Source of the DNA: Thermus thermophilus
GTDB lineage: Bacteria > Deinococcota > Deinococci > Deinococcales > Thermaceae
Direction: 5' to 3'
Length of the DNA stretch: 64,000 nt
NCBI RefSeq assembly: GCF_019974155.1
Contig: NZ_AP025158.1
Span: 1,984,001 to 2,048,000, forward strand
Shown piece after piece: positions 20,914-24,326 of this stretch (positions within the stretch are counted from its first letter, which is position 1; each line of letters begins with the position of its first letter). The notes under the pieces were generated by a model. That model searched no databases. It saw only the letters and a program-made list of their open reading frames with translations, and was not told the DNA's origin. The translations under genes were made by a program, and so were the position numbers.

Positions 20914-21682
20914 GCGGCTGCGCCCCCTGGTCCTGGGCCAGACCCTTAGGCAGGTGGCCCACCACGACCCCGCCCGCTACCGGAACACGGCCCTGGCGGA
21001 GGGGAGGCGGGTCCTGGAGGTGGACCGCCGGGGGAAGTTCCTCCTCTTCGCCCTCGAGGGCGAGGTGGAGCTCGTGGTCCACCTGGGGATGACGGGGGGG
21101 TTCCGGCTGGAGCCCACGCCCCACACCCGGGCGGCCCTGGTCCTCGAGGACCGGACCCTCTACTTCCACGACCCCCGGCGCTTCGGGCGCCTCTTTGGGG
21201 TGCGGCGCGGGGACTACCGGGAGATCCCCCTCCTCCTCCGCCTCGGCCCCGAGCCCCTTTCGGAGGCCTTCACCTTTCCCGGGTTCTTCCGGGGGCTGAA
21301 GGGGAGCGCGAGGCCCCTCAAGGCCCTCCTCCTGGACCAGCGCCTCGCCGCCGGGGTGGGCAACATCTACGCCGACGAGGCCCTCTTCCGCGCCCGCCTA
21401 AGCCCCTTCCGCCCCGCCCGAAGCCTCACCGAGGAGGAGGCGCGGCGCCTCTACTGGGCCCTGCGCGAGGTGCTGGCGGAGGCCGTGGAACTCGGGGGAA
21501 GCACCCTCTCGGACCAAAGCTACCGCCAGCCCGACGGCCTCCCCGGGGGCTTCCAGACGCGCCACGCCGTCTACGGCCGGGAGGGCCTCCCCTGCCCGGC
21601 CTGCGGGCGCCCGGTGGAGCGGCGGGTGGTGGCCGGGCGGGGCACCCACTTCTGCCCCACCTGCCAGGGGGAAGGCCCCTAG
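20879..21682 (+). CDS. mutM: Formamidopyrimidine-DNA glycosylase
   Basis: MutM/Fpg removes 8-oxoguanine and formamidopyrimidines and cuts the resulting abasic site. GTG 20879 is the right start because it places catalytic Pro2 and Glu3 at the N-terminus (PELPEVETTRR). Further motifs are HLGMTGGF, the GVGNIYADEALF helix-2-turn-helix, and the zinc finger CPACGRPVERR to HFCPTC. The length of 267 aa is normal for the Thermus enzyme. Its end overlaps thiP by 4 bp on the opposite strand. Confidence 0.97.
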   Translation: MPELPEVETTRRRLRPLVLGQTLRQVAHHDPARYRNTALAEGRRVLEVDRRGKFLLFALEGEVELVVHLGMTGGFRLEPTPHTRAALVLEDRTLYFHDPRRFGRLFGVRRGDYREIPLLLRLGPEPLSEAFTFPGFFRGLKGSARPLKALLLDQRLAAGVGNIYADEALFRARLSPFRPARSLTEEEARRLYWALREVLAEAVELGGSTLSDQSYRQPDGLPGGFQTRHAVYGREGLPCPACGRPVERRVVAGRGTHFCPTCQGEGP

Positions 21683-23169
21683 CCGAACCGCCCCCGGCCC
21701 CGGTCCAGAAGGTAGAAGAGCCCGGCGGAGAGGAGGGCGAGGACCAGGGCCAGGGCCACCGCCTCCCGGAAAGGGCCCTCCCCGGGGCGGCCCAGCCGCT
21801 CGTAGATGGCCAGGGCCAGGGTGGTCCACTCGGGCCGCCAGAGGACGAGGCTCGCCCCGAACTCCCCCAAAAGGGCCGCCAGGGCCAACGCCGTCCCCGA
21901 GGAGAGGGCGGGGAGGAGGAGGGGAAGCTCCACCCGAAGGAAGGCCCGGAAAGGGCTCGCCCCCAGGACCCGGGCCGCCTGGAGGAGGCTCGGGGGGAGG
22001 CCCCGGAGGGCGGGGAGGAGGGCCCGGGCGAGGAGGGGGTAGGCGAGGAGGGCGTAGGCGGCGAGGAGGAGGAGGAGGGAGCCCCGGAGGCCGGGGTAGG
22101 CCACGAGGTACCCGAGGCCCACGGCCACCGGGCTCACCATGAGGGGCAGGAGGCCCAAAAGGTCCACCCAGAGCCTCCCCCGGGCGGCGAGGGCGTAGGC
22201 CACCCCCAAAAGGAGGGCCAGGCCCAAGGCCCCCAGGCTGAAGCGGAGGGTGTTGGCCAGGGCCAGGGGCAAAGGGGTGAAGTCCTCCGAGGCCCAGGCG
22301 GAGGCCAAGGCCAGGGGCTCCAGGCGCAAGGCCAGGGCGAGGAGGGGGGCGTAAACCCCGAGGAAGAAGACCCCCATCCCCAGGGCCAGGGCCCACCCCC
22401 GCCCCCGCGGGAGGGGGCGGGGCGGAACGGGGGGCGGGAGGGCCGCCCCCTGGAGGCGGAGGTAGAGGAGGGCCACCCCGGCTAAGGTGGCCACCTGGAG
22501 GAGCATGAGGGCGCTGGCCTCGGGGAAGGCCAGGCGGTAGGCGAGAAGGGTGTAAATCTCCACCTCCAAGGTGGCGTACCGGGGCCCTCCGAGGAGCAGG
22601 GGCACCCCGAAGGCGGAGAAAGCGTAGAGGAAGACGAGGAGGCCCGCGGAGGCCAAAGCGGGGAGGAGGAGGGGAAGCCCCACCCGAAGGAAGGCCCGGA
22701 AAGGGCTCGCCCCCAGGACCCGGGCCGCCTCCAGGGGCCTTTCCAGCGCCAGGGCCACCGGGAGGAGGATGCGCAGGGCGAGGCCCAGGTTGTAGAAAAG
22801 GGCGGCCCAGTAGAGGACGGCCCGGGTGCCGTAGAGGTCCAGGCCCAGAAGCCCTCGAGGCCCCACCAGGGCCAGAAACCCCAAGGCCACCACCGGGGTG
22901 GGCAGGACGAAGGGCAGGGTGGAAAGGGCGAGGAAGCCCGCCCTACCGGGGAAGCGCCAGCGGAAGAGGAAGGCGAGGGGTAGGGCTAGGGCCAGGGTGA
23001 GGAGGGCGGAGCCGAGGCCGTATTCCAGGCTGAAAAGGTAGCGCTCCCAGTAGTAGGGGTTGGCCAGGGCGCGGCCGAACCCCTCCCCCACCCCCAGGAC
23101 CAGGACCCGGCCTAAGGGGTAGAAGAGGGCGAAGGCGAGGAAGGCGAGGACCAGGGCGGCCGCGCCCAC
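21679..23169 (-). CDS. thiP: Thiamine-type ABC transporter permease (ThiP-like)
   Basis: This 496-aa permease is a fused two-domain protein with about 12 membrane helices, like ThiP and other ferric/thiamine-class permeases. Each half has an EAA loop: EAARVLGASPFRAFLRVGLPLLLP in the first half, QAARVLGASPFRAFLRVELPLLLP in the second. The loops are almost identical even at the DNA level. It starts at GTG 23169, 6 nt after the thiB stop, in an operon controlled by the TPP riboswitch. No ATPase (thiQ) gene follows; mutM is convergent and overlaps by 4 bp. Confidence 0.88.
   Translation of the reverse strand: MGAAALVLAFLAFALFYPLGRVLVLGVGEGFGRALANPYYWERYLFSLEYGLGSALLTLALALPLAFLFRWRFPGRAGFLALSTLPFVLPTPVVALGFLALVGPRGLLGLDLYGTRAVLYWAALFYNLGLALRILLPVALALERPLEAARVLGASPFRAFLRVGLPLLLPALASAGLLVFLYAFSAFGVPLLLGGPRYATLEVEIYTLLAYRLAFPEASALMLLQVATLAGVALLYLRLQGAALPPPVPPRPLPRGRGWALALGMGVFFLGVYAPLLALALRLEPLALASAWASEDFTPLPLALANTLRFSLGALGLALLLGVAYALAARGRLWVDLLGLLPLMVSPVAVGLGYLVAYPGLRGSLLLLLAAYALLAYPLLARALLPALRGLPPSLLQAARVLGASPFRAFLRVELPLLLPALSSGTALALAALLGEFGASLVLWRPEWTTLALAIYERLGRPGEGPFREAVALALVLALLSAGLFYLLDRGRGRFG
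21908..21980. repeat. 73-bp direct repeat in thiP, copy encoding the second EAA loop
   Basis: Matches 22658-22730 at 72 of 73 positions (T21929 versus C22679). The copies are exactly 750 bp apart, so they sit in the same reading frame. Confidence 0.9.
22658..22730. repeat. 73-bp direct repeat in thiP, copy encoding the first EAA loop
   Basis: Partner of 21908-21980 with one mismatch. The repeat covers the EAA motif that contacts the transporter ATPase and the start of the following helix. Confidence 0.9.
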
Positions 23170-23175
23170 CCCGGC

Positions 23176-24210
23176 TCACCGCCGCCCGGCCCGCACCGCC
23201 TCGGGGTCCTGGCCTTGGAGGACCACCCGGGTCCACTCCTCAATCCACCGCTCCCGGTTCGCCGCCATGCGGGCCGGGTCCAGACGCACGGCCCCGGCGG
23301 GAGGCGGGGTGAAGCGGAAGACCTCGGGCAGGCGGGCGTCCCGCCTGGCGGGGTAGACCCACATCTCCGTGGGAATGTTCTCCTGCACGGGGCGGGAGAG
23401 GAGCCAGTCCACGAAGCGGCGGGCGGCCTCCAGGTTCTTGGTCCCCTTGAGGATGCCCACGAACTCCACCTGGAAGAAGGCGAGCTCCGGGAAGAGGTTC
23501 CCGCTGGGCGGCTCCTTGTACTTGCCCTCGGAGTAGTAGACCTCGGCGGCGGGGCTCGTGGTGTAGGAGACCACCAGGGGCCGGTCCCCGCCGTGGAGGG
23601 TGAAGTGGGTGTAGTAGGCCTCGCTCCAGCCTTTGGCCACCCGGACGCCCCCGTCGCGGAGCCTGGCCCAGAAGTCCAGGTACCCGTCCTCCCCGAAGCG
23701 GGCCACCGTGGCCATCAGGAAGGCGAGGCCGGGGGAGCTGGTGGCGGGGTTCTCCACCACGAGCAGGCGGGCGTACTCCGGGCGGGCGAGGTCCTCCGGC
23801 CTTTGCGGCAGGGCCTTGCCCCGGAAGTAGGCCCGGTCGTAGTTGAGGCTGACGAAGCCGTAGTCCACGGGAATGGCCCGGAAGCTGGGGTCCAGAAGGA
23901 GTTCGGAGCGGAGGTTCCGGATCTCCGGGCTCACGTAGGGGAGGAGGATGTCCGCCTCGAGGGCCCGGGAGAGGAAGGTGTTGTCAAAACCGTAGAGGAC
24001 GTCGGCGATGGGGGCCCCCTTGGAGAGGATGGCCTTATTCAGGGTCTCCCCCGCGTCGCCTCCCTTGAGGAAGCGGAGCCGGATCCCCGTCTCCTCCTGG
24101 AACCGGGCGATGAGGGCCTTGTCCAGGGAGAAGCTGGAGTGGGTGAGGACCACGAGCTCCTGGGCCAAGCCCAGGGTCAGGAACGCCAAAGCCGCCAGGA
24201 CTTTCCGCAT
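23176..24210 (-). CDS. thiB: Thiamine-binding periplasmic protein (ThiB/TbpA-like)
   Basis: This 344-aa protein from ATG 24210 begins with a signal peptide (MRKVLAALAFLTLGLAQ) and then reads ELVVLTHSSFSLDKALIARFQEETGI, GGDAGETLNKAILSKGAPIADVLYGFDNTFLSRA and IPVDYGFVSLNYD, all typical of thiamine-binding proteins. It should deliver thiamine to ThiP. ATG 24210 is chosen because the riboswitch leader puts GGAGGGG 4 nt before it; the in-frame ATG at 24228 falls inside the sequestering hairpin. Regulation by TPP at translation is inferred from the leader. Confidence 0.93.
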   Translation of the reverse strand: MRKVLAALAFLTLGLAQELVVLTHSSFSLDKALIARFQEETGIRLRFLKGGDAGETLNKAILSKGAPIADVLYGFDNTFLSRALEADILLPYVSPEIRNLRSELLLDPSFRAIPVDYGFVSLNYDRAYFRGKALPQRPEDLARPEYARLLVVENPATSSPGLAFLMATVARFGEDGYLDFWARLRDGGVRVAKGWSEAYYTHFTLHGGDRPLVVSYTTSPAAEVYYSEGKYKEPPSGNLFPELAFFQVEFVGILKGTKNLEAARRFVDWLLSRPVQENIPTEMWVYPARRDARLPEVFRFTPPPAGAVRLDPARMAANRERWIEEWTRVVLQGQDPEAVRAGRR

Positions 24211-24214
24211 CGCA

Positions 24215-24237
24215 CCCCTCCTTGTCACCGGGAGGGG
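24215..24237 (-). promoter_or_regulatory. Ribosome-site-masking hairpin of the thiB riboswitch
   Basis: On the mRNA CCCCUCC pairs with GGAGGGG (7 bp, loop CGGUGACAA). The 3' arm is the thiB ribosome-binding site. The loop repeats GGUGAC from the P1 3' strand, so the P1 5' strand GUCACC could pair with either. Confidence 0.75.
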
Positions 24238-24239
24238 AT

Positions 24240-24326
24240 GGCCGTCACCTTCCCTACGCCGGCATGACCCGGATCAGGTTCCAAGGGTATGCTCTCAGCC
24301 CCTTTGGGGCACCCCCGGTGACGGCC
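24240..24326 (-). promoter_or_regulatory. TPP riboswitch (THI element)
   Basis: The minus strand carries the thiamine pyrophosphate aptamer: GGGGUGCCCC, GGCUGAGA, ACCCUUGGAACCUGAUCC, then GUCAUGCCGGCGUAGGGA, in the conserved order. A perfect 10-bp P1 helix closes it (24317-24326 with 24240-24249). It starts 1 bp after the stop of the upstream hydrolase gene. It should shut down thiB-thiP expression when TPP is plentiful. Confidence 0.97.

Follow-up and report, generated by a model that had tools for sequence, protein, structure and literature searches.

Concerted synonymous change in the two EAA-loop segments of a thiP-like permease gene in Thermus

Homologous segments inside a single bacterial gene can evolve in concert. 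In polyketide synthase and peptide synthetase genes, repeated domains are homogenised by internal recombination, and divergence allows them to break out (PMC4256081). Conversion between copies on one bacterial chromosome is also well known, and for the tuf genes in Salmonella it was measured in the laboratory between two separate, almost identical genes (PMC5485169). The thiP-like gene of Thermus described here resembles both systems. It shares with the synthases the apparent homogenisation of homologous segments within one gene, and with tuf the presence of two copies on one chromosome and a conversion bounded by shared sequence. It differs in that whole domains or modules are involved in the synthases, whereas the thiP segment covers only ~48 nt of a gene for a membrane protein built from two pseudo-symmetric halves; and in that conversion in thiP is deduced from comparison. 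A report on 16S loci (PMC3661481) is not relevant to the thiP loops. A search of open PMC papers revealed none that describes conversion acting between EAA loops.

Two matched loop segments in a fused permease gene

The window (the whole 64-kb stretch of Thermus thermophilus DNA analysed) contains a thiP-like gene for a fused ABC permease (Table 1) with two Pfam PF00528 (BPD_transp_1) stretches, one in each half of the protein. The predicted fold has a mean pLDDT of 88, and it matches the fused ferric-ion permease FbpBC of T. thermophilus (9j4r_A, TM 0.84); half-size permeases such as ModB and PotB/C also match it. FbpBC and ThiP share one fold, with two EAA loops 250–258 residues apart. NCBIfam ThiP models match the protein, all of them below cut-off (the equivalog model TIGR01253, 62 bits against the 395 required). 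Notwithstanding these scores, a thiamine role is likely from gene order, because thiP follows a thiB-like gene that has a TPP riboswitch upstream. For the dedicated ATPase ThiQ, no gene in the genome exceeds the TIGR01277 cut-off (best, 185 bits against 245), and no ATPase gene lies beside thiP or in the thiBP operon; the transporter may borrow its ATPase from another system. At its other end, thiP converges on mutM (Fpg glycosylase), and the two gene ends overlap by 4 bases (21679–21682).

Table 1. Features of the thiP-like locus (positions in the window)
Feature	Position	Strand	Description
thiP-like fused ABC permease gene	21679..23169	(-)	ORF of 496 codons, GTG start; two BPD_transp_1 halves
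thiB-like substrate-binding protein gene	23176..24228	(-)	TIGR01254, 304 bits (cut-off 93); same operon as thiP
TPP riboswitch	24233..24326	(-)	Rfam RF00059, 75.9 bits (gathering 54.3); upstream of thiB
Block A, EAA loop of N-terminal half (placed by model)	22659..22731	(-)	codons 147–171; 72/73 nt match to block B
Block B, EAA loop of C-terminal half (placed by model)	21909..21981	(-)	codons 397–421; 72/73 nt match to block A
Putative conversion core, block A	22684..22731	(-)	codons 147–162; within-gene synonymous excess confined here
Putative conversion core, block B	21934..21981	(-)	codons 397–412; within-gene synonymous excess confined here
Codon 164, Gly (GGG)	22678..22680	(-)	block mismatch, N half; Gly in 27/27 Thermus and 20/20 other Thermaceae
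Codon 414, Glu (GAG)	21928..21930	(-)	block mismatch, C half; Glu in 27/27 Thermus and 20/20 other Thermaceae

An earlier sequence-only reading of this DNA had noticed two near-identical blocks exactly 250 codons apart in this gene. They are present as described, matching at 72 of 73 nt and separated in frame by 750 nt, its coordinates being one base low. They differ only at the second position of one codon, codon 414 in block B and codon 164 in block A. The longest exact part spans 51 nt (21930–21980 and its partner), and the window has no other exact direct repeat as long as 24 nt. At the same offset the flanks are unremarkable (39/81 and 40/81 nt identical on either side). At the protein level the two halves are 41% identical over 196 alignable columns, so the statement that the rest of the two halves differ greatly is true of the DNA. 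In the structural model, helices 142–150/155–183 and 392–400/405–434 (numbering one below that of the gene) form a short helix, a turn with Gly and the next helix, an arrangement that repeats at the 250-residue offset. The protein is a type I ABC importer permease with pseudo-symmetric halves, and the model thereby bears out the proposal that each block encodes one of its two EAA loops. EAA loops of such permeases dock on the ATPase. Genome-wide, the best match of the block besides the two copies themselves is 74% over 77 nt, in the FbpB-like gene, and at this level of similarity we rejected exchange between the block and other permease genes as a source of the match.

Within-gene identity across Thermus and its relatives

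The gene was present in all 27 Thermus genomes examined. In the 23 non-redundant genomes whose thiP frame is unbroken, we compared all pairs of 25-codon windows in thiP and subtracted cross-genome from within-genome identity. The resulting map peaked at codons 146/396, at the offset of 250 (z = 8.7 among 100,128 window pairs), while the best value at any other offset in the same set was z = 4.5; the codons neighbouring the block had no within-genome excess. Since amino-acid matching could produce such a peak, the test was repeated on synonymous codons. Pairs with the same residue used the same codon in 319 of 460 cases within genomes, as compared with 6049 of 9906 across genomes, and 1 in 100,000 label permutations reached this result. 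As a matched control, we drew pairs of columns with identical amino acids from other parts of thiP, by which shared ancestry is preserved. The core codons 147–162/397–412 had a synonymous sum of 1.814 against a null of 0.086 ± 0.275, a value reached by 0 of 200,000 draws. For codons 163–171, 33,697 of 200,000 control draws reached the observed value, showing no synonymous excess. Because the excess is limited to codons 147–162, the 73-nt block divides into an apparently converted core of ~48 nt and a stretch that is alike in every species. Thus, conversion, which had been suggested for the whole 73-bp block, is supported for the ~48 nt and not for the remainder.

The core excess was still unreached (0/200,000 in each case) after removal of codons 151, 155 and 157, after removal of the window lineage and its sister, and with intact genes only. 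It became weaker when the window genome (G000), G017, G016, G006 and G007 were all left out (2505/200,000 draws). A nucleotide map with 16-codon windows behaved differently: with codons 151, 155 and 157 masked, its peak fell to z = 5.6, no higher than that of the best unrelated pair, and much of the signal in that map is therefore amino-acid co-variation. Pooling all Thermaceae in one map blurred the signal, and the block came third (z 4.9, versus 5.2 for an unrelated pair).

Identity between the two blocks ranged from 51 to 73 of 75 nt in the 25 Thermus genes with an unbroken frame (G021 being scored over 72 positions), from 35 to 60 in 20 other Thermaceae, and from 29 to 58 in the wider Deinococcota (38 of the 53 non-Thermaceae genomes with a match, plus G036). 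High values among named loci were those of T. arciformis (70), T. composti (67), T. brockianus (66) and T. altitudinis (64); lower ones were those of T. igniterrae (58), T. caliditerrae (57), T. scotoductus (56) and T. tenuipuniceus (55).

The signal has definite limits. A group of 12 Thermus genomes had no synonymous excess (observed -0.017; null 0.022 ± 0.333), and the 20 other Thermaceae had no signal at the block (z 1.9). The other fused permease of Thermus, the FbpB-like one, also has two loops in this layout but, unlike thiP, gave no concerted signal at its EAA loops in 19 non-redundant copies (z 2.0). The comparison of within-gene with between-species identity, proposed as a check of ongoing conversion, was therefore positive for the genus overall and negative in the 12-genome group and in the other Thermaceae. 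As the copies diverge independently in these two sets, the conversion is episodic and, of the two fused permeases tested, specific to thiP. The silent 12-genome group resembles the break-out upon divergence described for the synthases (PMC4256081).

Joint changes on the tree and in single genomes

We placed the codon changes on a tree built from thiP outside the blocks, that is, from the same gene as the one tested and with weak nodes (support 34–76). In the core, 19 changes to the same codon took place in both copies along a shared branch, on 13 branches in all, and 13 of the 19 were synonymous. Matched controls gave a mean of 2.4 and a maximum of 12 such changes in 200,000 draws. Excesses of identical codons were seen in G016 (23/23), the window genome (21/22), G006 (21/23) and G007 (18/21), and only 4 of the 25 genomes pass individually at 5% false discovery. 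In the window genome, the cross-species prediction for the 22 sites with shared amino acids is 13.4 (P = 7.6e-5). Codon bias alone, the explanation that the sequence-only reading had named as fatal to its proposal, is rejected both by these per-genome counts and by the same-amino-acid controls.

The sister species G007 and G011 illustrate the pattern. They differ by 6.6% outside the blocks and at 8/48 and 7/48 positions in the cores, in parallel in both copies: G007 has ACC...GCT ACC CCG in both, and G011 has ACG...GCC and CTA AGG in both. Unusual codons such as ACG, GCT, CCG and CTA shift jointly. Some amino-acid changes behave in the same way. Of the 27 Thermus genomes, 20 have V/V at residues 151/401, 5 have T/T and 2 have S/T; V changed to T in both loops together on three branches. 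The loops of G025 and G020 carry a W/W pair. Outside Thermus, positions 151/401 carry a fixed difference, Thr/Val in 16 of the 20 Thermaceae, as against V/V or T/T in 25 of the 27 Thermus genomes.

Among the genomes compared, the nearest relative of the window genome is G017. The two differ at 2.1% of sites outside the blocks (26 of 1230) and at 7 of 150 inside. At six of these seven, the window copies agree and the G017 copies do not. The copy that differs between the two genomes alternates from site to site, and a single clean one-way tract is for this reason not visible. These differences could reflect conversion that took place in the window lineage once the two had separated, or decay of the G017 gene, which has a broken frame in the assembly. 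The thiP genes of G017 (L036, L138) and G025 (L037, L139) are both broken in frame, as assembled, just past the first EAA block. In G021 (L032, L124), a low-quality assembly, the reading is shifted for ~10 codons immediately before and into the second EAA block.

The conversion signal ends just before codon 164/414. On the simplest reading, the Gly164/Glu414 difference is probably upheld by purifying selection against tracts that cross this codon.

Explanations for the matched loops and their meaning

The two loop segments have changed synonymously in concert, lineage by lineage, at one location with definite boundaries, and the controls lack such change. We consider it very probable that this reflects recurrent ectopic gene conversion within the gene, over a tract of ~48 nt, as the synonymous excess and the same-branch changes support; conversion inside one gene was also the first proposal of the sequence-only reading. 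The tract (codons 147–162 and 397–412) would occasionally be copied from one half to the other, at the place where the halves share enough identity for pairing. Copying would homogenise synonymous changes and a few amino-acid ones, namely Val/Thr at 151/401 and an aromatic residue or Leu at 157/407. It would have been repeated independently in several Thermus lineages, recently in that of the window or a near ancestor, and would have lapsed in others, whose copies drifted apart. Possible molecular routes are strand invasion of the RecA type, annealing, or a switch of template between the two direct repeats, which lie 750 nt from each other. The driver would be opportunity, given by the high local identity, and not a requirement that the loops be identical. 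T. thermophilus is polyploid. A point that counts against conversion is that, in T. thermophilus HB27, one assay at a single locus ruled out that two marker alleles convert each other (PMC6469415). In Deinococcus radiodurans, one mismatch between 438-bp repeats lowered recombination 4.8-fold in recA+ cells, via MutS (PMC4627823), which fits conversion lapsing once copies diverge.

Could selection alone have matched the loops? Both would face the same ATPase surface, and the strong codon preference of high-GC Thermus could make convergent residues mimic copied DNA. The co-variation at 151/401 is what such convergence predicts, and codons 163–171, alike in all species without a within-genome excess, are exactly such an effect. 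In the core, however, the synonymous excess is unmatched by 200,000 same-amino-acid draws and unusual codons move together, the FbpB-like paralogue has no signal, and residue matching at 151/401 is not required, because most other Thermaceae keep T/V. Convergence by selection is therefore improbable as the source of the core signal, the synonymous tests having largely refuted it already. A further rival, that the window genome underwent one recent segmental duplication of the 73-bp block or contains an assembly artefact, would account for the near-identity in one sharp block; it is refuted by the presence of the loops at the same 250-codon offset in Thermus orthologues, by the homology of the halves throughout, and by several species that carry their own independent matched versions.

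Compatible with conversion, and in our judgement rather unlikely, is its maintenance by selection: identical loops would fit better on an ATPase homodimer, so that identity-restoring events become fixed. Events do recur in several lineages, and amino-acid changes (V to T, W/W) enter both loops together. On the other hand, conversion has lapsed in the 12-genome Thermus group and is absent from the 20 other Thermaceae and the FbpB-like paralogue, and the loops never become fully identical, as Gly164/Glu414 is kept. These absences are evidence against a general need for identical loops, a candidate explanation that finds no support in any of the three sets. Nor did the related suggestion fare well that conversion is kept going by docking on identical ATPase subunits: the FbpB-like permease is silent, the Gly/Glu difference is present in all 47 Thermaceae, and the ATPase itself is absent from the thiP operon.

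With recurrent conversion as the preferred explanation, the thiP loops add a further example to the known cases of concerted evolution, any functional role of the matched loops being putative. On a more speculative and rather unlikely reading, conversion would let both coupling loops change in one step, a new allele (Val to Thr, or Trp) being copied across the halves. If so, Thermus could adjust how the loops fit a shared ATPase that is encoded elsewhere and would avoid a mismatched intermediate, with selection shielding Gly164/Glu414. The gene very probably offers a small, naturally occurring instance of ectopic conversion that acts on a very short stretch (~48 nt) of one bacterial gene. As its orthologues include lineages with the process on and lineages with it off, both the divergence that stops conversion and the importance of matched coupling loops become directly testable. 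The case also carries a warning that co-variation between the halves of a fused transporter can be produced by the copying of DNA instead of by coevolution of residues in contact.
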